A stretch of 64,000 nt of DNA from Petroclostridium xylanilyticum. GTDB taxonomy: Bacteria; Bacillota; Clostridia; SK-Y3. The notes beneath the pieces were generated by a model. The model was not told where the DNA came from. It did no database searches and was given only the letters and a program-made list of their open reading frames with translations. Position 1 is the first letter of the stretch, and every line of letters begins with the position of its first letter. A program made the position numbers and the translations under genes. The stretch lies in the NCBI RefSeq assembly GCF_002252565.1, contig NZ_NPML01000018.1, positions 1 to 64,000 of the forward strand. The letters run 5' to 3'. Below, one piece after another: positions 468-59,000 of the stretch.

Positions 468-519
468 TGTGACATGGGGACGGTTCGTGTGTCACATGTG
501 ATTAAGGAACCGTCCCCAT
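468..519. repeat. GGGGACGGTTC hairpin element
   Basis: GGGGACGGTTC at 476-486 faces GAACCGTCCCC at 507-517, with TGTGACA/TGTCACA words around the left core. It is a member of the dispersed family discussed with the RAYT element at 52732-53583. Confidence 0.9.
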
Positions 520-549
520 TGTTCCGCACTAAGCACCTGGCACCGCTTC

Positions 550-1470
550 TTAGTTATTTAAGTATGGGTCCAAGTCTTCTGCCTTTTCAATATTAAATAT
601 ATTCAGTGCTATTTTTTTAAGCTGTTCTTCTCCTAATCGCTCAATCTTCTGCCTGTAATCCGATGGAATGTTTTTAATTCTTTGTTCCAGTTGCATCATG
701 ATTACTTGCTCTATTCCTTTTTCTATCCCTTTTTCTATTCCTTTTTCTATTCCTTTTTCTATCCCTTTTTCTATTCCTTTTTCTATTCCTTTTTTCTCCG
801 CAAATTTTATTACATTCAACATGCTTATCTCCTCCCATATCTCTTCATAATCATTCAAATTTAAAAACTTATCGGCCAACACAAGAACTGCCGATACTAT
901 GGCCTCATAATGGCTTTTCTTTAACTTTATTCTACTGCATAATTTTATTACTTCTTTGGTTCTCTCTTTTACAGTTTTTGTGCTTTTCATAATTGGTAGA
1001 AATATCAGGTTAAGCCAGTCGGGCTGTTGCCCACTGTTAATTTTTTGTACTTCCTGTTCATAAATTATGTCTCCATCATATTGCTTCATATGTATTATTT
1101 CAATTCTATAATTGATTGCACCCATCTCAAAACCCTGTTCCAGCTGCTCATTTTTGCCACTGTATATTACCACTGTCTTGACCGGCTTTTTATGCTGCAT
1201 TATCATTCTGGCATCGTACATGAATATTCTATAAAGAGTCTCCTGTGTAAAGTCCGATTGAAACTCCAGATGCAGTAAACTGCTGTCCTTTAGTTCAAAC
1301 ATGAAATCAGTGTGCATGGTATTGGCTTCTATCTTAGGAAGTTCTGTAGGGAATATCCTTTCTATTTGTGCACATTTTATTCCCAGAAATTCCAATATCC
1401 TTCCCTTGAATACACCTGCCGCCAATTTGAATATTAAATCATAATTCTTATCCGTTACTTTCTTTTGCAT
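550..1470 (-). CDS. Rpn family recombination-promoting nuclease/putative transposase, copy A
   Basis: A 306-residue protein of the Rpn/PD-(D/E)XK nuclease-transposase family, which in E. coli promotes RecA-independent recombination. The N-terminal half shows the family pattern: TDFMFEL supplies the acidic residue and HLEFQ the E-x-Q version of the E-x-K motif. The C-terminal region carries six GIEK blocks and a GIEQ block, typical of the low-complexity tails in this family, then a helical end. ATG at 1470 is chosen because GGAGG lies seven bases upstream; GTG at 1476 would overlap that site. Its stop codon abuts a small hairpin (AAGCG...TGCTT). Two near-identical copies follow in tandem. Confidence 0.85.
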   Translation of the reverse strand: MQKKVTDKNYDLIFKLAAGVFKGRILEFLGIKCAQIERIFPTELPKIEANTMHTDFMFELKDSSLLHLEFQSDFTQETLYRIFMYDARMIMQHKKPVKTVVIYSGKNEQLEQGFEMGAINYRIEIIHMKQYDGDIIYEQEVQKINSGQQPDWLNLIFLPIMKSTKTVKERTKEVIKLCSRIKLKKSHYEAIVSAVLVLADKFLNLNDYEEIWEEISMLNVIKFAEKKGIEKGIEKGIEKGIEKGIEKGIEKGIEQVIMMQLEQRIKNIPSDYRQKIERLGEEQLKKIALNIFNIEKAEDLDPYLNN

Positions 1471-1565
1471 CTTCACACCTCCAGTTTATCATATTTGCCA
1501 CCTATTGTAAATCCAGTATATATCAAACATATGTTCGTGTCAATGGTGAAAATATGTGACATGGG

Positions 1566-1629
1566 TGTGACATGGGGACGGTTCTCTGTCACATGCTCTT
1601 TTTATGTGTCAGAAGAACCGTCCCCATGG
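1566..1629. repeat. GGGGACGGTTC hairpin element
   Basis: GGGGACGGTTCT and AGAACCGTCCCC form the arms, with TGTCACAT and ATGTGTCA nested inside. It lies immediately downstream of the DUF2442 gene, between it and the nuclease gene. Confidence 0.9.
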
Positions 1630-1638
1630 TTTACTGGT

Positions 1639-1875
1639 TTACCATGGTTTACTATCCTCATAAAGAACTTCAGGGTCAATATCCGCTTGATTACTCCACT
1701 CTATGCTGTCAAAACTCACTCTAACTGACCTAAACAATTTTTCATCTTTTAATTCTTTAAAAATACCTTTGTTCAGATAAGGTTTCATATCAAATATTCT
1801 TTTTTCCCCATTTTCAAAAGTTAATAGCAATTGGTAGTCCCTTAAAGGTTCAACATCAATAATAGCTAAATACAT
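1639..1875 (-). CDS. DUF2442 domain protein, copy A
   Basis: A 78-residue protein matching the DUF2442 pattern (start YLAIIDVEPL, then LLLTFENGEKRIFDMKPYL and DIDPEVLYED). Members are small proteins often next to DUF4160 or toxin-antitoxin genes; the molecular function is not established. ATG at 1875 has GGAGG seven bases upstream; ATG at 1881 is too close to it. The last codons and the stop run into repeated TGGTAAACCA words that connect to the hairpin at 1566-1629, so the native C-terminus may have been replaced. No DUF4160 partner is present. Confidence 0.75.
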   Translation of the reverse strand: MYLAIIDVEPLRDYQLLLTFENGEKRIFDMKPYLNKGIFKELKDEKLFRSVRVSFDSIEWSNQADIDPEVLYEDSKPW

Positions 1876-1942
1876 AAACATACCTCCTTTACTTTAACGG
1901 TTCAATTTTAAAAGGAAGCTCGCCATTCATTGCTAGAATTCA

Positions 1943-2037
1943 TGTGACATGGGGACGGTTCGTCTGTCACCTGCGCTTTTTATGTGACTGAGGAACCGTC
2001 CCCATGTCACATTTTATGTGTCAGAAGAACCGTCCCC
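1943..2037. repeat. GGGGACGGTTC hairpin element plus an extra half-copy
   Basis: A full element (1943-2011) with outer TGTGACAT/ATGTCACA stems is followed by a second right half ending in AGAACCGTCCCC. It lies upstream of the DUF2442 gene. Confidence 0.9.
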
Positions 2038-2040
2038 TTG

Positions 2041-2197
2041 GTTTGTGTCTAAGGATTTCAAAAAGTTTTTTAATTCTAGCATCTTACTATTAAAATTAAT
2101 TCCTCTTGCAGAACAAAAGTTTTCAATCCACTTGTTAGTGCCGGCTTAAAAAATCCGCAAATCTATCAAATTTCCAATGTAAAATTACGTATTTGTG
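2041..2197 (-). pseudogene. Coding-like relic, frameshifted
   Basis: On the minus strand one frame reads KYVILHWKFDRFADFL before a stop; the next frame continues NKWIENFCSARGINFNSKM and LKNFLKSLDT. Amino-acid composition looks protein-like in both pieces, and they join across one frameshift, but I do not recognise the family. A second copy lies one unit to the right, around 4115-4271. Treat as a possible remnant only. Confidence 0.3.
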
Positions 2198-2272
2198 TGA
2201 AAAAATAAAAAGAAAAAAAGAAAACTACTCATAACAGAGTTATGAAGTAGCAACAACAAAATCTTATTTCAT

Positions 2273-2520
2273 ATGCTTTCCGGTCCATTTCCGCCAAATC
2301 ACCGAATAAGTCCGAAACCAAACACAGTAAGCCTTAGAACACTGGAAAGGTATTTAAAACTCTATTATGAAGGTGGTCTTGAGGCATTAAAGCCAAGTCA
2401 AAAGGAACGGGCCTCCAGAATACCAGTGGACTATCTGGAACAAGCTGCCCTATTAAGACGTGAAAATCCCAAGCGCAGTATTCTAACCATTATCTCTATG
2501 CTAGAAAAATCCGGACCGAC
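2273..2520 (+). pseudogene. Transposase N-terminal helix-turn-helix fragment, unit A
   Basis: The frame encodes VSLRTLERYLKLYYEGGLEA, then LKPSQKERASRIP and LRRENPKRSILTIISMLEKS. This resembles the DNA-binding N-terminus of Mu/IS481-type DDE transposases. No catalytic domain follows: the frame runs into a GACGGTTC hairpin at 2513 and stops. No ribosome site is visible. It is a decayed fragment interrupted or abutted by the hairpin. Confidence 0.65.
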
Positions 2521-2590
2521 GGTTCGTCTGTCACATGCGCTTTTTATGTGACTGAAGAACCGTCCCTATGTCACCCTAGAACCGTCCCCT
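2513..2590. repeat. GACGGTTC hairpin element, partly degenerate
   Basis: The left core reads GACGGTTC with a degraded 5' side, and the right core GAACCGTCCC. An extra right half (AGAACCGTCCCC) follows. It cuts off the transposase remnant and lies close to the junction between units A and B. Confidence 0.85.
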
Positions 2591-2635
2591 TGGTTCATAT
2601 TCGTTTTTCCATTACTAAGCGCCTGGCACCGCTTC

Positions 2636-3544
2636 TTAGTTATTTAAGTATGGGTCCAAGTCCTCTGCCTTTTCAATATTAAATATATTCAGTGCTATTT
2701 TTTTAAGCTGTTCTTCTCCTAATCGCTCAATCTTCTGCCTGTAATCCGATGGAATGTTTTTAATTCTTTGTTCCAGTTGCATCATGATTACTTGCTCTAT
2801 TCCTTTTTCTATCCCTTTTTCTATTCCTTTTTCTATCCCTTTTTCTATTCCTTTTTCTATTCCTTTTTTCTCCGCAAATTTTATTACATTCAACATGCTT
2901 ATCTCCTCCCATATCTCTTCATAATCATTCAAATTTAAAAACTTATCGGCCAACACAAGAACTGCCGATACTATGGCCTCATAATGGCTTTTCTTTAACT
3001 TTATTCTACTGCATAATTTTATTACTTCTTTGGTTCTCTCTTTTACAGTTTTTGTGCTTTTCATAATTGGTAGAAATATCAGGTTAAGCCAGTCGGGCTG
3101 TTGCCCACTGTTGATTTTTTGTACTTCCTGTTCATAAATTATGTCTCCATCATATTGCTTCATATGTATTATTTCAATTCTATAATTGATTGCACCCATC
3201 TCAAAACCCTGTTCCAGCTGCTCATTTTTGCCACTGTATATTACCACTGTCTTGACCGGCTTTTTATGCTGCATTATCATTCTGGCATCGTACATGAATA
3301 TTCTATAAAGAGTCTCCTGTGTAAAGTCCGATTGAAACTCCAGATGCAGTAAACTGCTGTCCTTTAGTTCAAACATGAAATCAGTGTGCATGGTATTGGC
3401 TTCTATCTTAGGAAGTTCTGTAGGGAATATCCTTTCTATTTGTGCACATTTTATTCCCAGAAATTCCAATATCCTTCCCTTGAATACACCTGCCGCCAAT
3501 TTGAATATTAAATCATAATTCTTATCCGTTACTTTCTTTTGCAT
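2636..3544 (-). CDS. Rpn family nuclease/putative transposase, copy B
   Basis: A 302-residue copy of the 550-1470 gene, with identical predicted protein except for one fewer GIEK block (five plus GIEQ). The same ATG with GGAGG seven bases upstream is used. Catalytic-type residues in TDFMFEL and HLEFQ are intact, so this copy is not visibly inactivated. Nucleotide differences from copy A are few, indicating recent duplication rather than independent arrival. Confidence 0.85.
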   Translation of the reverse strand: MQKKVTDKNYDLIFKLAAGVFKGRILEFLGIKCAQIERIFPTELPKIEANTMHTDFMFELKDSSLLHLEFQSDFTQETLYRIFMYDARMIMQHKKPVKTVVIYSGKNEQLEQGFEMGAINYRIEIIHMKQYDGDIIYEQEVQKINSGQQPDWLNLIFLPIMKSTKTVKERTKEVIKLCSRIKLKKSHYEAIVSAVLVLADKFLNLNDYEEIWEEISMLNVIKFAEKKGIEKGIEKGIEKGIEKGIEKGIEQVIMMQLEQRIKNIPSDYRQKIERLGEEQLKKIALNIFNIEKAEDLDPYLNN

Positions 3545-3639
3545 CTTCACACCTCCAGTTTATCATATTTGCCACCTATTGTAAATCCAGTATATATCAA
3601 ACATATGTTCGTGTCAATGGTGAAAATATGTGACATGGG

Positions 3640-3703
3640 TGTGACATGGGGACGGTTCTCTGTCACATGCTCTTTTTATGTGTCAGAAGAACCGTCCCCA
3701 TGG
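3640..3703. repeat. GGGGACGGTTC hairpin element, unit B copy
   Basis: Copy of the 1566-1629 element at the 2074-base tandem period. Confidence 0.9.
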
Positions 3704-3712
3704 TTTACTGGT

Positions 3713-3949
3713 TTACCATGGTTTACTATCCTCATAAAGAACTTCAGGGTCAATATCCGCTTGATTACTCCACTCTATGCTGTCAAAACTCACTCTAACT
3801 GACCTAAACAATTTTTCATCTTTTAATTCTTTAAAAATACCTTTGTTCAGATAAGGTTTCATATCAAATATTCTTTTTTCCCCATTTTCAAAAGTTAATA
3901 GCAATTGGTAGTCCCTTAAAGGTTCAACATCAATAATAGCTAAATACAT
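3713..3949 (-). CDS. DUF2442 domain protein, copy B
   Basis: Predicted protein identical to the 1639-1875 product, with the same GGAGG-spaced ATG and the same repeat-derived stop region. Function is unknown for the family. Confidence 0.75.
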   Translation of the reverse strand: MYLAIIDVEPLRDYQLLLTFENGEKRIFDMKPYLNKGIFKELKDEKLFRSVRVSFDSIEWSNQADIDPEVLYEDSKPW

Positions 3950-4016
3950 AAACATACCTCCTTTACTTTAACGGTTCAATTTTAAAAGGAAGCTCGCCAT
4001 TCATTGCTAGAATTCA

Positions 4017-4111
4017 TGTGACATGGGGACGGTTCGTCTGTCACCTGCGCTTTTTATGTGACTGAGGAACCGTCCCCATGTCACATTTTATGTGTCAGAA
4101 GAACCGTCCCC
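4017..4111. repeat. GGGGACGGTTC hairpin element, unit B copy
   Basis: Tandem-period copy of the 1943-2037 element with its extra half. Confidence 0.9.
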
Positions 4112-4346
4112 TTGGTTTGTGTCTAAGGATTTCAAAAAGTTTTTTAATTCTAGCATCTTACTATTAAAATTAATTCCTCTTGCAGAACAAAAGTTTTCAA
4201 TCCACTTGTTAGTGCCGGCTTAAAAAATCCGCAAATCTATCAAATTTCCAATGTAAAATTACGTATTTGTGTGAAAAAATAAAAAGAAAAAAAGAAAACT
4301 ACTCATAACAGAGTTATGAAGTAGCAACAACAAAATCTTATTTCAT

Positions 4347-4594
4347 ATGCTTTCCGGTCCATTTCCGCCAAATCACCGAATAAGTCCGAAACCAAACACA
4401 GTAAGCCTTAGAACACTGGAAAGGTATTTAAAACTCTATTATGAAGGTGGTCTTGAGGCATTAAAGCCAAGTCAAAAGGAACGGGCCTCCAGAATACCAG
4501 TGGACTATCTGGAACAAGCTGCCCTATTAAGACGTGAAAATCCCAAGCGCAGTATTCTAACCATTATCTCTATGCTAGAAAAATCCGGACCGAC
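4347..4594 (+). pseudogene. Transposase helix-turn-helix fragment, unit B
   Basis: Same sequence and same truncation as the fragment at 2273-2520. Confidence 0.65.
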
Positions 4595-4664
4595 GGTTCG
4601 TCTGTCACATGCGCTTTTTATGTGACTGAAGAACCGTCCCTATGTCACCCTAGAACCGTCCCCT
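4587..4664. repeat. GACGGTTC hairpin element, unit B copy
   Basis: Tandem-period copy of the element at 2513-2590, near the B/C unit junction. Confidence 0.85.
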
Positions 4665-4709
4665 TGGTTCATATTCGTTTTTCCATTACTAAGCGCCTGG
4701 CACCGCTTC

Positions 4710-5618
4710 TTAGTTATTTAAGTATGGGTCCAAGTCCTCTGCCTTTTCAATATTAAATATATTCAGTGCTATTTTTTTAAGCTGTTCTTCTCCTAATCGC
4801 TCAATCTTCTGCCTGTAATCCGATGGAATGTTTTTAATTCTTTGTTCCAGTTGCATCATGATTACTTGCTCTATTCCTTTTTCTATCCCTTTTTCTATTC
4901 CTTTTTCTATCCCTTTTTCTATTCCTTTTTCTATTCCTTTTTTCTCCGCAAATTTTATTACATTCAACATGCTTATCTCCTCCCATATCTCTTCATAATC
5001 ATTCAAATTTAAAAACTTATCGGCCAACACAAGAACTGCCGATACTATGGCCTCATAATGGCTTTTCTTTAACTTTATTCTACTGCATAATTTTATTACT
5101 TCTTTGGTTCTCTCTTTTACAGTTTTTGTGCTTTTCATAATTGGTAGAAATATCAGGTTAAGCCAGTCGGGCTGTTGCCCACTGTTGATTTTTTGTACTT
5201 CCTGTTCATAAATTATGTCTCCATCATATTGCTTCATATGTATTATTTCAATTCTATAATTGATTGCACCCATCTCAAAACCCTGTTCCAGCTGCTCATT
5301 TTTGCCACTGTATATTACCACTGTCTTGACCGGCTTTTTATGCTGCATTATCATTCTGGCATCGTACATGAATATTCTATAAAGAGTCTCCTGTGTAAAG
5401 TCCGATTGAAACTCCAGATGCAGTAAACTGCTGTCCTTTAGTTCAAACATGAAATCAGTGTGCATGGTATTGGCTTCTATCTTAGGAAGTTCTGTAGGGA
5501 ATATCCTTTCTATTTGTGCACATTTTATTCCCAGAAATTCCAATATCCTTCCCTTGAATACACCTGCCGCCAATTTGAATATTAAATCATAATTCTTATC
5601 CGTTACTTTCTTTTGCAT
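4710..5618 (-). CDS. Rpn family nuclease/putative transposase, copy C
   Basis: A third copy, 302 residues, with the same predicted protein as copy B. The tandem unit ends about 75 bases upstream of its start, so this copy has a different upstream region: a terminator-like hairpin at 5704-5735 instead of the DUF2442 gene. Its expression may therefore differ from copies A and B. Confidence 0.85.
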   Translation of the reverse strand: MQKKVTDKNYDLIFKLAAGVFKGRILEFLGIKCAQIERIFPTELPKIEANTMHTDFMFELKDSSLLHLEFQSDFTQETLYRIFMYDARMIMQHKKPVKTVVIYSGKNEQLEQGFEMGAINYRIEIIHMKQYDGDIIYEQEVQKINSGQQPDWLNLIFLPIMKSTKTVKERTKEVIKLCSRIKLKKSHYEAIVSAVLVLADKFLNLNDYEEIWEEISMLNVIKFAEKKGIEKGIEKGIEKGIEKGIEKGIEQVIMMQLEQRIKNIPSDYRQKIERLGEEQLKKIALNIFNIEKAEDLDPYLNN

Positions 5619-5735: not shown

Positions 5736-5783
5736 AACACTTGCATCCATGTCACACAATCTTCTCAACCACTCTGTGACATG

Positions 5784-5852
5784 TGTGACATGGGGACGGT
5801 TCGTCTGTCACATGCGCTTTTTATGTGACTAAGGAACCGTCCCCGTGTCACA
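5784..5852. repeat. GGGGACGGTTC hairpin element truncating cpsD
   Basis: A full element: TGTGACA, GGGGACGGTTC, TGTCACAT, spacer GCGCTTTTT, ATGTGACT, GGAACCGTCCCC, GTGTCACA. Its right edge supplies the TGA that ends the kinase fragment. Confidence 0.92.
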
Positions 5853-6186
5853 CAGCTGACTTCTGTATATGCTGCTTATAATCATCATGCTGCGCAAGGA
5901 CATTCGTCATCCCCTTTTGATTAGACAAATAAAATGTCCTATGTACCTTTGGCTTTCTTAAATCCGCATCAATCAATAAAGTCCTGCTTCCCGACTGTGC
6001 AAAAGTAATAGCAAGATTCGCTATGGTAGTCGTCTTACCCTCCCCTGGCCCGGCACTTGTCACCACAATTACCTTCAGAGGTTTATCAACACTGGAAAAC
6101 TGTATATTCGTCCTCAAAACTCTATAAGCCTCCGAGATAGGCGACTTAGGGTTGGTATGGGCAATTAACGATCTTTCACCTGACAT
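5848..6186 (-). pseudogene. CpsD/CapB-family tyrosine-protein kinase, C-terminally truncated
   Basis: The 112 residues match the N-terminal half of bacterial BY-kinases that pair with Wzz-type adaptors. Walker A GPGEGKTT and Walker A' LLIDADLRKP are present. Family members are about 220-240 residues, with a Walker B motif and a tyrosine-rich tail; both are missing here because the frame enters the hairpin element at 5784-5852, which provides the stop. ATG at 6186 has GGGAG about eight bases upstream. It lies downstream of wzz. A truncated product lacking Walker B is unlikely to phosphorylate. Confidence 0.85.
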
Positions 6187-6316
6187 CAAATAAACTCCCT
6201 TCTTAGAATTAACAATTCGACATACAATTCATAATCATTAATCATCAGTTATAATTCTTTCTGGTTATTTTAATAATTGCGCTTATCATATTCTTACACC
6301 CTTTGTTGTCAAAAGT

Positions 6317-7002: not shown

Positions 7003-7205
7003 AATTAACCCCACTTCAATAAATTTTATAATATGTCGCTTTTTATGTATGATATAAACAAAATTATTATACCATTATAGCCTTTTCCCTTCAAATAAAA
7101 ATTTATTTCCTCTGCTGCGTTAACAATCTCTGAGCCTTTCCACAATATTCATAAACCAGATTAAATGCACCCTTTAATACCGGTTCTTAGATTATCAATT
7201 AAAAT

Positions 7206-7238
7206 GGCCCAATACTCCCGTAATTACCATATTGAGCC
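7206..7238 (-). terminator. Expression-platform terminator of riboswitch copy 2
   Basis: Same GGCTCAATA/TATTGGGCC hairpin and T-rich tail as copy 1, between the aptamer and wzz. Confidence 0.7.
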
Positions 7239-7255
7239 TTAAAAACACTCTTTTC

Positions 7256-7329
7256 GGCAACCTGGCAATCATAGTCAAAAACAACTTTAGACCCATAGCT
7301 TTGCGTCCTTACCTTTCGATAAGTTTGCC
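7256..7329 (-). promoter_or_regulatory. c-di-GMP-I (GEMM-I) riboswitch upstream of wzz
   Basis: Carries GGACGCAAAGC, the GAAA-capped P2 hairpin and the GGCAA/TTGCC P1 closure on the minus strand. Its position between a good promoter and the wzz-cpsD remnant suggests that cyclic di-GMP controls polysaccharide chain-length machinery. Whether the ligand turns expression on or off cannot be decided by reading; the terminator downstream indicates control of transcription. Confidence 0.87.
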
Positions 7330-7386
7330 TTTTTGCGAATTATTTTTAAATTTACCATCATTAATACATTTTACATTTCTTGTTAA

Positions 7387-7416
7387 ATTATAAACTATTT
7401 TGGCGAATTGTGTCAA
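7387..7416 (-). promoter_or_regulatory. sigma-A promoter for the riboswitch-wzz transcript
   Basis: TTGACA at 7411-7416 and TATAAT at 7387-7392 with an 18-base spacer. Confidence 0.82.
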
Positions 7417-7439: not shown

Positions 7440-7541
7440 TGTGACATGGGGACGGTTCTCTGTCACATGCTCTTTTTATGTGTCAGAAGAACCGTCCCCA
7501 TGGTTTAAGAACCGTCCCCATGGTTTAGTCCCCATGGTTTA
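7440..7541. repeat. GGGGACGGTTC hairpin element with two extra partial right halves
   Basis: The full hairpin is followed by two further fragments of decreasing length, each ending CCCCATGGTTTA. This suggests stepwise growth by slippage or repeated partial insertion. It starts at the outer edge of the 349-bp repeat. Confidence 0.85.
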
Positions 7542-8654: not shown

Positions 8655-8754
8655 CATGACATGGGGACGGTTCGTCTGTCACATGCGCTTTTTATGTGAC
8701 TAAGGAACCGTCCCCGTGTCACATATGTGACTAAGGAACCGTCCCCGTGTCACA
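8655..8754. repeat. GGGGACGGTTC hairpin element with duplicated right half, overlapping hepT stop
   Basis: A complete hairpin is followed by a second ATGTGACTAAGGAACCG... half. The final GTGTCACAT provides the TGA of the HepT gene. Confidence 0.9.
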
Positions 8755-9599: not shown

Positions 9600-9668
9600 T
9601 GTGTCATGGGGACGGTTCGTCTGTCACCTGCGCTTTTTATGTGACTGAGGAACCGTCCCCATGACACA
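9600..9668. repeat. GGGGACGGTTC hairpin element with variant closing stem
   Basis: The core arms are standard, but the outer stem is TGTGTCAT/ATGACACA, not the more common TGTGACAT/ATGTCACA. Both strands of the stem change together. A further right half-copy (AAGAACCGTCCCC) lies at 9752-9764. Confidence 0.9.
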
Positions 9669-42722: not shown

Positions 42723-42818
42723 CTAAACACCTCCCGTCGAATGAATTAAGAATTGAGAATGCAGTTCGAGTCCTTAACTCTACCGAAGTCACAAGTATGC
42801 GGACACTATTCATCAAAA

Positions 42819-42850
42819 AAGGTTCTCTACCCGTAGACGCAGAGAACCTT
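42819..42850 (-). terminator. Attenuator terminator in the rplJ leader
   Basis: AAGGTTCTCTGC folds back on TAGAGAACCTT, followed by six T. Its loop GTCTACGG is exactly complementary to CCGTAGAC near the start of the leader (42956-42963), giving a possible antiterminator pairing. Confidence 0.85.
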
Positions 42851-42965
42851 ATAATATAAAATTGAACAGCATTTAGAACTTAATCTAAATCTGAACCTTA
42901 ATCTTATACATTTCTCCTCGGTAGGATGTTAATCTATTAAGCATACGCACCTACTGTCTACGGAA
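42851..42965 (-). promoter_or_regulatory. Ribosomal protein L10 leader RNA
   Basis: The stretch between the promoter and the attenuator has the Firmicute L10-leader arrangement: CCGTAGACAGTAGGTG, then CATCCTACCGAGGAGA, with GTAGG/CCTAC pairing. In known examples the L10(L12)4 complex binds this RNA and promotes termination. Identification is by layout and hand pairing. Confidence 0.75.
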
Positions 42966-42990
42966 TTCGTATTCATTTTTTACTTTTAAG

Positions 42991-52689: not shown

Positions 52690-52731
52690 ATTGAAAAAAT
52701 ATTTAAACTTTATTCAGACAATAGTCTCAGA

Positions 52732-53583
52732 CAATAGGGACGGTTCTTATTGACAAATCACCTAGAGCTATTATAAAATTAGTTTGAGGTGATTTATGTG
52801 CCAAGAATAGCAAGAGAGAAAAGCAGTTCGGGGATATATCATATTATGGTAAGAGGAATCAATCAACAAGACATTTTTGAAGATGATGAAGATAGACAAA
52901 GATATATAGAAACATTAGAGAGATTTAAAAAGGAAACTAATTTTGAAATTTATGCGTATTGCTTAATGAATAATCATGTCCATTTGCTCATAAGAGAAAA
53001 AGAAGTGGAAATATCAAAAATATTGAAAAAGATCGGTACAAGTTATGCCTACTATTTTAATTGGAAGTATGAAAGGAACGGACATTTATTTCAAGATAGG
53101 TATAAGAGCGAAACGGTGGAAAGTAATAGCTATTTTTGTATGGTAATAAGGTATATACACCAAAACCCTGTAAAAGCCGGATTATCGAGTATGGAAGATT
53201 ATAAATGGAGTAGCTACAATAGTTATATACATAGAGATAGACAAACAATGATTGATGCGGAATTTTTTCTAGGAATGCTATCAGAGAATAAAGACCTGGC
53301 AATAAAAAGGTATATTGATTACATGAACGAGCCTAACAATGATAAATGCTTAGAAATAGAAAATAAAGTTAAATTAACCGATGAGAAAGCAAGAGATATT
53401 ATAAAAAAAATAGGTAATTTAAAAAACATATCGGATATACAAAGATTAGATATCGAAAAAAGAAATAGTATTTTGAAAAAAGCCAAGGAAATAGAGGGCA
53501 TGTCTGTTCTGCAGATATCAAGAGTAACGGGTATTAATAGAACTGCTATTAGTAAAGCTTGACAGCAAGAACCGTCCCTGTTG
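52732..53583 (+). mobile_element. RAYT element bounded by GGGACGGTTC inverted repeats
   Basis: Ends at 52732-52756 and 53559-53583 are inverted 25-base repeats with 21 matches, both centred on GGGACGGTTCTT. The transposase gene fills the space and its TGA lies inside the right repeat. The same core forms the hairpins scattered through the window, so this is the likely source of the activity that spread them. Confidence 0.85.
52798..53562 (+). CDS. REP-associated tyrosine transposase (RAYT, Y1_Tnp family)
   Basis: 254 residues beginning VPRIAREKSSSGIYHIMVRG. The Y1/HUH transposase motif is seen as CLMNNHVHLLI (histidine pair), with DRYKSETVE and VIRYIHQNPVKAGL downstream, and a C-terminal helix-turn-helix-like end (ISRVTGINRTAISKA). 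GTG at 52798 is the start because GAGGTGAT is six bases upstream. The RAYT group handles single-stranded REP hairpins. The gene is intact. Confidence 0.92.
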   Translation: MPRIAREKSSSGIYHIMVRGINQQDIFEDDEDRQRYIETLERFKKETNFEIYAYCLMNNHVHLLIREKEVEISKILKKIGTSYAYYFNWKYERNGHLFQDRYKSETVESNSYFCMVIRYIHQNPVKAGLSSMEDYKWSSYNSYIHRDRQTMIDAEFFLGMLSENKDLAIKRYIDYMNEPNNDKCLEIENKVKLTDEKARDIIKKIGNLKNISDIQRLDIEKRNSILKKAKEIEGMSVLQISRVTGINRTAISKA

Positions 53584-53695
53584 ATCGTTTGTTGATCTGT
53601 TGTAAAAATATTTTCAAATGACCCCGTTTTTTATAAATGTCTTTTCGAATTATTTTATTATTAACTATATCTAATAAATATAACGAGGGTCTGCT

Positions 53696-53970: not shown

Positions 53971-55323
53971 TTACCCCTTCTTCCTGCTAAATCGGACTTT
54001 TTCAGTGGTTTCGAACCGTCCCCTGTCGCAAATCATTCCGCAGTATAAGAAAAAGATAATTGAAATAAGTTGAAAATGCATGTCTACATCTATCAATGAA
54101 TGGGACAAGATTGTTAATATAACTATCAAGTAGTACCAGTCCTTTTGTTTTGCTCTTGCAAATCTCACTAAAGTACTAATAATAAATACCATGAGAGAAG
54201 CAAAACCGGTCAGTCCTACATCGGTTAATACCTGTAAGAAATAGTTGTGTACGTATTTTACATAATCTGCCGCATATTGCTCGCATAGCACTGCCCATCC
54301 CATCGCCCCTGCACCAAAAAGGGGATAGTCGGCTATAAGCCTTAGAGCCCCTTTATAATAAGCCATTCTCGCTGCCCATTCAGTAACATCAAAACCGATA
54401 TCTGTTATTCTACTGTAAACCGGATTTCTCACAAGGTTAATAGCTGCAAGCCCGATAACCATTAATACTTTTAATGAATTCATATAAAACGGCATACCCA
54501 GGTATTCAGGAAGTATGGCCGTGATTGCTCCAATTAACAGTACTACTGTAAACCGTATTTCTCCAGAGTTAGATACTAAGAATAGAGAAACAATCGCTGA
54601 TAGTGCTAATAAAAACAAATATCTTATTTTACTATCTTTATCCAGTAACCTCCCGGACAATAATATAAATAAGCTAAAAAGAGAGAATATTATCCACATT
54701 CCACGGGAATAAGTCAGGACCAATCCACAGGTAAGGATATATATGCACAGGTTTAGCACCACTCTCCACTCCCCACTCCTCACTTGACTCAGATACTTTA
54801 AACATAATATAATCCCTATCATAAAATATACAGCTGCAGTATTTGCATAGTGAAAAGTCGATTGTACTCTTTCATCAAATACCGCTCCTTCAATAGGAAA
54901 TATACCTGATAACGCCATCAATCCTAATAGGCTTACAATGACACCTGAAATTATAATGCCCTTATCTATCCATTGTTTATGATGGTTGTGGCACAATGAA
55001 CCAATCATAAAGACAGGTGTAAATGCGATTACTCTTAACGCTTCCCGCAGTGCTCCTTCTTTGTTTACTCCATATAGAACTGATACAATATACAGGACTG
55101 AAAATACAAAAAGAGATATAACTGTCCTGTTAAGAAACAGTTTATCTCTTTTTTGATATATAATATAACCCGCATATATCATAATGACGATATTTGCTAT
55201 AAGGTATTGATGAAAAAAGTATAATCCCTGAAAAATAGACGCAATAATAAAAAATAGAATTACTGCGGTTTTCTCAATACATGTTTTTATTCTGCTATTC
55301 TGCCCGTTTGTCTTAGCTACCAT
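53971..55323 (-). CDS. O-antigen ligase-like membrane protein
   Basis: 450 residues with about 12 predicted membrane helices. A large loop near the C-terminal third (ADYPLFGAGAMGWAVLCEQY, then YVHNYFLQVLTDVGLTGFA) is the Wzy_C/WaaL signature; such enzymes transfer or polymerise lipid-linked glycans. Two odd parts come from repeats: residues about 180-188 (QVRSGEWRV) are encoded by the GGGGAGTG repeat in frame, and the last ~14 residues (FETTEKVRFSRKKG) by the GGACTTTTTCAGTGGTTTCG repeat, which also gives the stop region. No polysaccharide genes adjoin it. Confidence 0.82.
   Translation of the reverse strand: MVAKTNGQNSRIKTCIEKTAVILFFIIASIFQGLYFFHQYLIANIVIMIYAGYIIYQKRDKLFLNRTVISLFVFSVLYIVSVLYGVNKEGALREALRVIAFTPVFMIGSLCHNHHKQWIDKGIIISGVIVSLLGLMALSGIFPIEGAVFDERVQSTFHYANTAAVYFMIGIILCLKYLSQVRSGEWRVVLNLCIYILTCGLVLTYSRGMWIIFSLFSLFILLSGRLLDKDSKIRYLFLLALSAIVSLFLVSNSGEIRFTVVLLIGAITAILPEYLGMPFYMNSLKVLMVIGLAAINLVRNPVYSRITDIGFDVTEWAARMAYYKGALRLIADYPLFGAGAMGWAVLCEQYAADYVKYVHNYFLQVLTDVGLTGFASLMVFIISTLVRFARAKQKDWYYLIVILTILSHSLIDVDMHFQLISIIFFLYCGMICDRGRFETTEKVRFSRKKG
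53976..54013. repeat. GGACTTTTTCAGTGGTTTCG repeat fused to GAACCGTCCCC
   Basis: Shares about 38 bases with 26345-26387. It is followed directly by a GAACCGTCCCC half of the hairpin family, so two repeat families meet here, inside the 3' end of the ligase gene. Confidence 0.8.
54761..54786. repeat. GGGGAGTG-family repeat inside a coding sequence
   Basis: AGTGAGGAGTGGGGAGTGG on the minus strand matches the intergenic repeats at 29957 and 30149 but here is translated in frame. Confidence 0.85.
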
Positions 55324-55829: not shown

Positions 55830-56033
55830 CTTAAACCTCCGTATTACTATTAAATACTTTTTTAATTATATCATATATAGAAAAATTTTAAATATGATTT
55901 ATTTGTTTTTATAAATGCTGCATGAGAACCATACGATAACACTGAAAAGGTACTTAATCGGCCAGGGTTTCGACATAAAGACAGTTCCTTAGTCGCATTG
56001 AAGAACATCGGCAAGCGAATCATCTTCCTAGAA

Positions 56034-56064
56034 CGTGACAGTGAGAACCGTCCCCACTGTCACG
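56034..56064. repeat. GGGACGGTTC hairpin at the sbcC stop, with its own stem
   Basis: CGTGACAGTG (56034-56043) and CACTGTCACG (56055-56064) close over the conserved loop AGAACCGTCCC. The sbcC TGA is inside the right stem. The stem sequence differs from other family members but is perfectly complementary. Degenerate repeat words at 55970-56010 adjoin it. Confidence 0.88.
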
Positions 56065-59000
56065 CTTTTTCTATTCTCACCTGGCTGCCCTTTCCATCGG
56101 AAGATGGTGGCTCGACGATAAGGCGGCGGGTTATCCTGCTCTTTAGTTCTGGCACATGGCTGATAAGGCCGATGACTCTTTTTGTGGTACTTAATCTCTC
56201 CAGCGAATCTATTACGGTATCCAGAAGATTCGTATCCAGCGTCCCAAAACCTTCATCCAGGAAGAAAAATTCCAGAGGACTCTGGCCTTTTAGCTGGATT
56301 TGCGATGACAGAGCCAATGCGAGCGATAGAGATGTTAAGAAGGTTTCGCCTCCGGATAAAGATGATACAGGCCTGTGTACGCCCCCATTGGCATTATCCC
56401 TGATTACAAATCCGTTTTCGGTATCCAGTTCCAACGTGTATCTGTACCTTGTCAGTACTCCTAAAAGTTCAGAAGCTTCTTTTGCGATATACCTTAATCT
56501 CTCCTCGGATATAAACTCTATAAAGCTGTTCCCTTTAAGCAGCTTTTGTATCTGGTCCAGCATTTCCTTCTTTTTACTATATTTTTGCCATTCTTTGTTC
56601 AGTTCAACCCATTGATCAAAATTCTTTTTGATATTGTTGTAAATGCTTTTTGCATTTTCATACCGTGAGATGCTGTCTTCCTTCTGCTGCTTCTTTAATA
56701 GATAGTTCTCACTGATTGTCTGCCATTGCTCTTCCGTTATCCTTCTCCCGTTCAGCTTTTTATTCAATAGATCTTTTTGAGTTTCCAATTTCTTTTGAAT
56801 ATCTTCATACTGTTTTATCTCTTCATGCAGGCATTTCTGCTGTTCACCGGACAATAAGCAGTTTTCAACCTCGTCTACGCTTGCAAAGCCCCTTTGTTCA
56901 AGTGCTGTATGCAATCTTTGCATTTCATCATGCAAATTTGTGACATAAATTGTTTTTTGATTCTCCAAAGTGCTTTTCTGCGTGCTGATATTATTAAACT
57001 GTTCCCTTATTTCTTTCAGATACTCCGTAAGCCGCTGTTTTTCTTTCTGCAATAGTGCGATTTTCATATCTATTTCTTTGAGTCCTTCTTCTATATCTTT
57101 ATCCCCCGTGAGTTCCTTCAACTTCTGAATTTTTTCCTCCTGCTGTTCTCTTAGACTCCTCCCTTCCGTTTGGACATCGGCAGCTTTACTTTCCCATGCC
57201 TGCTTATCGGCTATCAATTGTTCAATCTCTTTTTTTATAGTTTCTGAGGACTTTTGCAGCTGCTCCATTTGCTGCTGTCGTTTTTCTATCTTCCTGTCAT
57301 TTTGTTCAATCCTGTCCAGTTCACTGCTGATACTTTGAATACCCAGTTTCTTAATAAATATATTGTAGGATTCAAATATATGCTTGAAATGATGAATGCA
57401 TTCATTAAGTACCTTCTCCTGCTGGAGCAAATTATCTTTATTTATTTCCAGCTCAGCTCTTCTAACACTTTCTTCAATTTTCTGCCCGGATAATGCATCT
57501 TCTAGTTTTGATATGCTTTTCTTTATCTCTTCCAGTTTTGTTTCCCATTGCTCTATTGCTTTCAGCTTCTTCTCGTTTGTTTCTCTGACATGATCTAAAA
57601 CTGTCTCCAGTTGTTCCAGTGCCAAGTCCTGCATATGCCGAGGAAGTGTGTTAACCAGCCGGACATATTCATCCTGCTTTAGCGCTAGATCTTTTGCTGT
57701 CTGAACGGACTGGCTTTCCAACACTTTAAGCTGTTCATGAAGTTTTATGCAATTATTCTCCGCTAACCTATAGCTCTTTTCAGTTTCGGCCAGCTGCTCT
57801 TCAGCCTGTTTTAGCTGCTGTTCTATTTCATGCATTTTTTGCTGCTCTACTGCATTTGCAGGGTTAGGGTGGTGTAAAGATCCGCAGACCGGACATGGAA
57901 GTCCTTCACTTAAATTTTTTGCCAAAGCATAGGCCGTATTTTTGTCATATAGTGTTTTAAATTTTTCAACCCTTTCACGACCGGTGTTAAGTAAAGCCTC
58001 CAGACTGGTTTTATGCAGTTCAGCTTCTTTGCATTTCTCCCCTTGCTGTTGGATGTGGGCATGAATACTGTCCAGGCGCGCACTAATGGCATCTATATCT
58101 GCTTTTTTGGACCTTAGTGCTTCCCATTTTAATTTTATATCATGGTAGCTTCTTTCATCCGCCATGAGTTCATTCCGGTCACCCGGTTTTGTGCTCTCAT
58201 GCTTTACCTGCTGGGATTTTAACTCTTCCAATTTGGCCTGCAGCAGCTGTGTCTGCTTGGAAGCCTCCTCAAGTTTGATCTCCAGTTCACAGATTTTAGA
58301 AGACAGGTCATTATACTCCCGCTGGTGTTTATCCCTGTCCTGCCTGGCTTTATTTAATTCTTCCTCCAGCTTTATTCCTGCCTGTACTTGTTTTCTATCG
58401 TCAACATCTACTTTTAACTTTTCAATATCCTGCCTGCATTCCATGATGCTTTTCTCTAATGCCTCAAGCTCCTGCTTCTTTTTGATAACCTCCTGGTCTT
58501 TCGCCCTAATCTTCTCATTATGGCTTCTATAGCTGTCGCGAAGCATTTGCAGTTTTGTTTCAATTGCACATATTTCCTGTTTTACCTCTAATGCATTATT
58601 AAATTTTGCTTTAAGTTCTACCAGCATGGGAATTTCTATTTCTGCCTTTTCAAGGATTCTGTCATATTCGGCCTGCGCCTTATTCATTTGCGTCTCCAGA
58701 TCAGGCAGCAGCTTGTATATTGATTCCAACTGATGCCGGGTATCCGCTAAATTCTTTTCAGCCTCCCTGTATTTGCTGATGACATCCACCAAGCCATCGG
58801 CCTTGACAGCCTTTTCATAGAGCTTCCTTTTATTGTTTATTTCCTCTAAGCCTGATAAATGTTCCTTTTCTTTATCGGTGATATCCTTTAATTCATTGAC
58901 AAGCTCCCATACTTCTTTTGCTTCATTATATTCTATCTCAGCCATTTTAAGTTCATCATCCGAATTCTCTTTATCCTGCCACGCCGTTTTCATCTTTCCT

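Follow-up and report, generated by a model that had tools for sequence, protein, structure and literature searches.

The window, by which we mean the whole 64-kb stretch of Petroclostridium xylanilyticum DNA that was analysed, contains a RAYT transposase gene. As the initial annotation had described, its open reading frame lies between two GGGACGGTTCTT cores in inverted orientation, one on the plus strand at 52737 and one on the minus strand at 53578. In profile searches the NCBIfam model REP_Tyr_transpos gave 80 bits with the protein, a score at the cut-off of that model. The HUH and YIHQNP motifs are kept, and H61, H63 and Y120 are invariant across the 14 RAYTs compared. Residues 223-254 match the helix-turn-helix (HTH) profiles HTH_23 and HTH_19 weakly, below the cut-off, and the AlphaFold2 model (mean pLDDT 88, pTM 0.71) places helices at 238-245 and 249-254. 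The closest fold to this model is that of the E. coli TnpAREP with a bound REP hairpin (4er8, E 1e-7), followed by structures of the IS200/IS608/ISDra2 group (2vjv, 2xm3). The E. coli enzyme, with 165 aa, is too short to contain the HTH of the window RAYT.

By its architecture the gene belongs with the RAYTs that have a C-terminal HTH (TIRYT, subclass 2.1 or group 1) and not with those of GTAG REPs. Judged from its sequence, the locus is most simply described as a TIRtron, a single-gene element in which a Y1 (HUH) transposase with a C-terminal helix-turn-helix is flanked on either side by inverted TIRs. The TIRYT architecture and TIRtrons were described in the corresponding parts of Di Nocera 2013 (PMC3733652). 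Quentin 2018 (PMC6006769), in the passages on this group, equates TIRYT with TnpAREP subclass 2.1 and places 291 of 292 Bertels RAYT group 1 sequences there; according to the same passages, REP-like sequences were not found in the vicinity of subclass 2.1 genes, and the role of the HTH is left open. The window element shares with the TIRYTs and TIRtrons of these passages the HUH-Y1 domain with C-terminal HTH, inverted TIRs with a GGGG-W-S motif, and dispersed TIR families that are often dimers. The full motif, GGGGWSAS, is reported in the relevant part of Di Nocera 2013 for the TIRs of some TIRYTs, not all. Its GGGGAC part fits the window core, in which base seven is G (GGGGACGG), and the AGG-type cores of relatives match it in full.

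The arms of the window TIRs are CAAT/ATTG-like and the outer arms have drifted (Table 1). Single-strand folding of the two TIR hairpins is weak, with z about 0.

Table 1. Positions of the RAYT element and of the dispersed hairpins in the window.
Feature	Position	Strand	Remarks
Truncated direct repeat of left outer arm (CAGACAATAG), outside the TIR	52716..52725	+	
Left TIR	52730..52756	+	outer arm GACAAT, core GGGACGGTTC 52737-52746, inner arm ATTGAC
RAYT/TIRYT transposase gene	52798..53562	+	likely start GTG 52798; stop 53562; Pfam Y1_Tnp 4.6e-19
HUH (H61-V-H63) and YIHQNP catalytic-tyrosine motif (Y120)	window RAYT		numbering from codon 52795
C-terminal HTH	about residues 223-254 of window RAYT		numbering from codon 52795
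HTH codons 238 (V), 249 (R), 253 (S)	53506..53553	+	covary with stem bases -5/-6 in relatives
Right TIR	53559..53586	-	outer arm GATCAACA, core GGGACGGTTC 53569-53578, inner arm decayed
Head-to-head hairpin pair	468..530	.	GTGACA-type stem, unlike that of the window RAYT
Head-to-head pair	1558..1629	.	GTGACA type; inside 2,074-bp tandem unit
Head-to-head pair with extra half	1945..2040	.	GTGACA type; in tandem unit
Head-to-head pair with extra half	2515..2593	.	left core degenerate; in tandem unit
Second copies of the three preceding elements	3632..4667	.	2,074 bp downstream
Head-to-head pair	5780..5855	.	GTGACA type; one long hairpin, -31.1 kcal/mol, z -10.2 (folded stretch 5781-5857)
Head-to-head pair with extra half	7440..7523	.	
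Head-to-head pair with repeated right half	8656..8753	.	
Head-to-head pair	9600..9668	.	GTGACA type
Single hairpin	56028..56071	-	perfect stem GTGACAGTG/CACTGTCAC, folding z -4.6

Dispersed hairpins in the window and the genome

The exact core GGGACGGTTC occurs 31 times in the window, where 0.03 copies are expected. A genome-wide count, which had been proposed as a check, gave 217 copies in 3.86 Mb (41 contigs) against 3 for the reversed-pattern control. Most window copies form head-to-head pairs with a GCGCTTTTT-like spacer, in agreement with the element body first described. Hairpins are present at all twelve places listed initially. Six of them (1566/1943/2513 and 3640/4017/4587) are copies within a 2,074-bp tandem duplication, so that the list represents about nine events, not twelve. 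The likeness between these hairpins and the RAYT ends is confined to the core: the stem is GTGACA/TGTCAC in the first 10 kb but CAAT/ATTG at the window RAYT. The initial annotation saw in the window RAYT the enzyme that had spread the listed hairpins. This is probably incorrect, as their GTGACA stem matches that of degraded RAYTs in the same genome (L039-L041, G000:C18:368-386 kb). The genome has 10 RAYT-model matches, some of them fragments; its elements were sampled from stretches of the genome, giving about 145 distinct contexts. An Rfam search at the hairpins gave no match. Among the literature matches listed for the core, which resemble primers or unrelated sequences, none places it within a repeat.

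As a set of RAYT-linked dispersed hairpins in Clostridia, the system is REP-like in kind, as was suggested from the start. It resembles GTAG REP/BIME/REPIN systems (RAYT groups 2 and 3) in its small dispersed palindromes, their head-to-head pairing and the presence of a RAYT in the genome. The difference from GTAG REPs that had been pointed out also holds: those carry a GTAG tetranucleotide at the foot of the hairpin, whereas here no GTAG tag was seen, the stem varies, and the constant motif, GGGAC plus 5 nt, lies in the loop. The HUH-Y1 fold is shared with IS200/IS605 elements such as IS608 and ISDra2. Those have subterminal imperfect hairpins and guide tetranucleotides, in contrast to the symmetric inverted TIRs, with core and stem in common, and the additional HTH found here.

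Several other features were noticed in the window. The 2,074-bp unit is present in three partial tandem copies (window 528-5618), each with an ORF of ~304-308 aa (MKMQKKVTDKNYDLIFK...) that ends in an expanded EKGIEKGIEKG repeat of a length varying between copies. Two c-di-GMP-I riboswitches of equal score (261-347 and 7253-7339, minus strand) sit in a duplicated identical 300-bp segment (110-409 and 7102-7401). A short ORF at 5848-6189 (-), similar to the N-terminal half of a polysaccharide tyrosine kinase, ends beside the hairpin pair at 5780-5855 and was possibly truncated by it. A ribosomal protein L10 leader (Rfam RF00557, 74.8 bits) is found at 42806-42981 (-). Half of another repeat family (GGGACGGTTCGAAACCACTGAAAAAGTCCG), at 54013 (53971-54022), supplies the 3' end, in frame, of an ORF for a membrane protein; this family is also present at two other loci (L086 and L100).

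Constant core and variable stem

The flanks of RAYTs in Clostridia and other Bacillota follow one end plan, with hosts including Pelosinus, Syntrophomonas, Desulforamulus and Thermoanaerobacter. Across about 145 RAYTs it consists of a constant loop of GGGAC plus 5 nt and a 6-bp stem that varies in sequence yet remains complementary. The half after GGGAC (5-6 nt) is lineage-specific: GGTTC(T) is commonest, and GTTCT, GTTTC, GGGGT, AGGTT, AGGTA, GGTCC and others occur, GGGACGGTTC being just one among several such cores. Stems of at least 5 bp are formed in 152 of 249 TIRs, compared with 27 (maximum 42) when partners are shuffled. In the 118 GGTTC TIRs, aligned in a fixed register, the six pairs from -3:+9 to -8:+14 are paired in 61-88% of cases against 29-58% with shuffled partners, and pairing drops sharply beyond pair 6, to 29% at the seventh position. 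The GTGCC-core lineage (genome G005) has a different pairing and was excluded from these GGTTC-core statistics. A formal count on 51 TIRs gave six pairs with 83.7% of cells as standard pairs and a stem covariation of 0.748, whereas shuffling gave 0.188 +/- 0.029 (exceeding it in 0/500 shuffles) and slid registers at most 0.161. The loop-adjacent pairs are mostly CA/TG; the distal pairs show all four Watson-Crick types.

Arms differ at 1.07 of 6 positions between the two ends of the same element and at 3.51 between elements. Stems are usually kept between RAYTs of 65-80% identity, and below 55% identity they are unrelated, with the core still kept. A tree of 116 RAYT proteins requires 16 changes of core type, where shuffling gives 38 (minimum 30), and 29 changes of the variable stem part, where shuffling gives 42 (minimum 37); stems track RAYT subclades and loops track deeper clades. 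The thresholds of 5 bp, 20 cores and 90% identity used here and below were set by the author, and several screens preceded the final one. The results to rely on are the covariation count, the phylogenetic simulation and the held-out test.

HTH residues and stem bases

When protein columns were screened against stem bases with control for sequence identity, residues 249, 253 and 238, all within the HTH, came out on top. In excess mutual information these were the first three of about 210 columns for both base -5 and base -6, the two bases beside the closing CA/TG pairs. The reference row of the screen is a sister of the window protein (L119) that carries R253; the window protein itself has V238, R249 and S253. 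Base -6 is G with K249 (23/23) and with E253 (13/13), and C with F249 (9/10) and R253 (11/15). Base -5 is mostly A with I, L or V at 238 and mostly G, C or T with Q, H, T or N. The same pairings occur on different cores: the AGACA stem accompanies K249/E253 on AGGGA, AGGCA, GGTTC and GCTTC cores, and the AAGCA stem accompanies P/A249 with F/W253 on GGTTC, GGTCC, GTTCT and GGGGT cores. In the window, the left inner arm TTGACA may correspond to a TGTCA stem, as R249 predicts, which is a reading of one sequence.

For a phylogenetic null, stem bases were simulated (400 runs, 222 columns) on a tree built from residues 1-215, which leaves out the HTH. For base -5, residues 238 and 249 reached z values of 8.4 and 8.0, the largest simulated family-wise value being 6.7. 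For base -6, residue 249 reached 9.6 against 7.8, and for base -7 no column exceeded the family-wise null. Training and held-out proteins both entered this simulation, so it does not count as a further independent test. In a test on disjoint closest pairs residue 249 was not the top column; its power was low, with just 7-8 of 40 pairs differing.

The held-out set comprised other RAYTs from 398 genomes of the phylum, after removal of proteins at least 90% identical to training proteins. Because the register is anchored on CA/TG and training stems had at least 5 bp, about half of the new RAYTs could not be scored (34/65 scorable); 28 scorable cases made up the held-out test. The rule, a naive Bayes classifier on residues 238, 249 and 253, was set after the training associations had been seen and was run once. 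Base -5 was predicted correctly in 82% of cases, against 64% for the nearest training protein, 39% for the majority base, and a mean of 41% (maximum 75%) for 200 random column triples; for held-out proteins below 55% identity to training the value was 55% (n=11). For base -6 the rule was right in 93% (majority 46%; random triples mean 56%, maximum 86%), and as the nearest training protein did equally well (93%), the gain over relatedness rests on base -5. Base -7 was not predicted by these residues (50%, no better than the majority; n=28).

Mobility and derivatives

A ~130-bp deletion derivative, in which the left and right TIRs enclose the final stretch of a window-type RAYT gene, is present at at least 13 places in the source genome with 91-99% identity, some copies being partial, and with unrelated flanks. 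The window RAYT itself is 81% identical to it. The window RAYT type thus appears to have spread at least 13 copies of this derivative, at loci other than the listed hairpins. A search of five other genomes of the family found no copy of the derivative in four, and the fifth (G005) gave distant matches only, of 71-73%. The derivative is like a MITE in retaining both ends, here with the last part of the gene, and unlike a MITE in that its parent is a transposase of the single-strand type and not a DDE element.

Copies at unrelated sites keep both outer arms together with variants of the body: four derivatives share TGACAG on the left and TATTGCC on the right. Genome G005 has RAYT copies (core GGGACGTGCC) at seven different sites; the seven are nearly identical and all have a GTATAT left outer arm. 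As subfamilies have both outer arms in common, the arms travel with the element. In the derivatives L411-L414 of the source genome the left outer arm TGACAG fits the stem of another RAYT and not their own inner arm; cross-mobilisation or recombination are possible causes.

Distribution and turnover

That cores follow RAYT presence, as had been predicted, was borne out in part by a class-wide survey of 293 genomes. At least 20 cores were found in 28 of the 80 genomes that gave a strong RAYT hit, compared with 10 of the 213 others (Fisher p 1.6e-10, with kinship ignored). Against this, three genomes with 24-83 cores (G150, with 83 copies, G189 and G043) gave no RAYT even by profile, and two others with many cores (G117 and G092) have RAYT fragments only. 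Cores without a RAYT would fit loss of the RAYT after spread, or a gap in draft assemblies. One genome (G273; L208, L220) combines 458 cores with only a weak RAYT hit. Paired hairpins there are heterodimers whose arms are nearly complementary, and longer arrays also occur. RAYT relatives were found on viral contigs (four). The relatives in 16 plasmid records and one phage record are all below 60% identity, so these give no strain-level empty sites.

Orthologous intergenic sites in species of genus g67 carry hairpins with the same core and different stems, sometimes inverted, and others are empty. At about 82% identity this comparison shows turnover and is too diverged for base-exact element boundaries. 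In genome G137 (L350-L369) and its relatives, single GGGACAA-type hairpins lie between A- and T-runs and are conserved at gene ends, as if co-opted for transcription termination.

Possible mechanisms of TIR recognition

In view of the above we consider it probable that the window element is a TIRtron with a two-part TIR, of which the HTH reads the variable stem and the HUH domain processes the constant core. The recognition helix of the HTH would read the stem as an address, after which the HUH domain would cut and join at the core on single-stranded DNA. Each transposase would mobilise its own TIRs, and from these miniature derivatives, paired hairpins and solo hairpins would arise. What the sequences show is that the stem is complementary, is inherited along with the transposase and covaries with residues 238, 249 and 253, and that deletion derivatives occur in many copies at unrelated sites.

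Instead of a hairpin stem, the arms could be two inverted half-sites in duplex DNA, read by an HTH dimer or by two copies of the HTH, an alternative that we regard as possible but rather unlikely. HTH domains usually have duplex DNA as their substrate. Complementarity of the arms would follow from the same HTH reading both, the centres of the arms are 21 bp apart, which is two helical turns, and each arm covaries with residue 249 by itself: taken one at a time, all four arms rank this residue first or second among the columns for bases -5 and -6. Some TIRs fold weakly as DNA, those of the window among them, and the weak single-strand folding of the window TIRs is also in line with duplex half-sites. 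However, the Y1 transposases studied, TnpAREP included, act on folded single-stranded DNA (PMC8266576). Moreover, G3, G2 and G1 of the core face a pyrimidine in 87, 73 and 87% of 30 distinct cores; the core thus tends to self-complementarity and the palindrome continues inward. Pair -8:+14, outside the HTH-link tests, is still paired in 61% against 33%. It has also to be considered that the inner arm serves as a guide by pairing with the target, as in IS608, and that insertion beside a match creates the stem. Guide-target complementarity sets the insertion sites of IS200/IS605 elements (PMC8266576), and truncated direct repeats of the outer arm stand just outside 104 of 310 cores, compared with 7% in a control. 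Many of these repeats end after G/GG or after GGGGAC, and repeated nicking near the core is one option for their origin. Outer arms taken from the target lost ground once derivative subfamilies at unrelated sites were found to have both arms in common, as do the seven G005 copies, and the outer arms covary with the HTH, which makes this origin improbable.

There are two further explanations. The hairpins might be mainly host transcription terminators or RNA structures under selection, with an incidental link to the RAYT. Many single hairpins of genus g67 do have the order A-run, stem, T-run, and two terminator-like ones are kept at orthologous gene ends there, one with a compensatory change. 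The TIRs on both sides of RAYTs, the co-inheritance of stem and core with clades, the covariation with the HTH and the multi-copy derivatives make this very improbable as the main explanation, and co-option as terminators can coexist with mobility. That the link between HTH and stem is a by-product of shared ancestry is suggested by the co-inheritance of stems with RAYT subclades. Yet the family-wise phylogenetic simulation was exceeded, the same residue-stem pairings converge on different core types, and there are held-out cases in which the nearest relative was wrong and the HTH residues were right; we give this explanation hardly any weight.

The two-part TIR reading has a further implication, towards which we lean only slightly: the address may be modular, with HUH and core for catalysis and an exchangeable HTH and stem for identity, linked by a short code from residues 238, 249 and 253 to two stem base pairs that evolves convergently. 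If this is true, changing the recognition code could direct a single-strand transposase to new targets. The passages of the TIRYT/TIRtron and subclass 2.1 papers on these elements contain no rule of a constant loop and covarying stem, no covariation of HTH and stem and no link to deletion derivatives, and relative to the TIRtron passages the first two of these are new. The covarying-stem rule gives these RAYTs a defined end structure and accounts for TIRs that seem mutually unrelated. The HTH would gain a specific function with named residues and bases. For genomes with several RAYTs it suggests a way to avoid mobilising one another's copies, and the family as a whole offers a natural set of specificity variants for a single-strand transposase.
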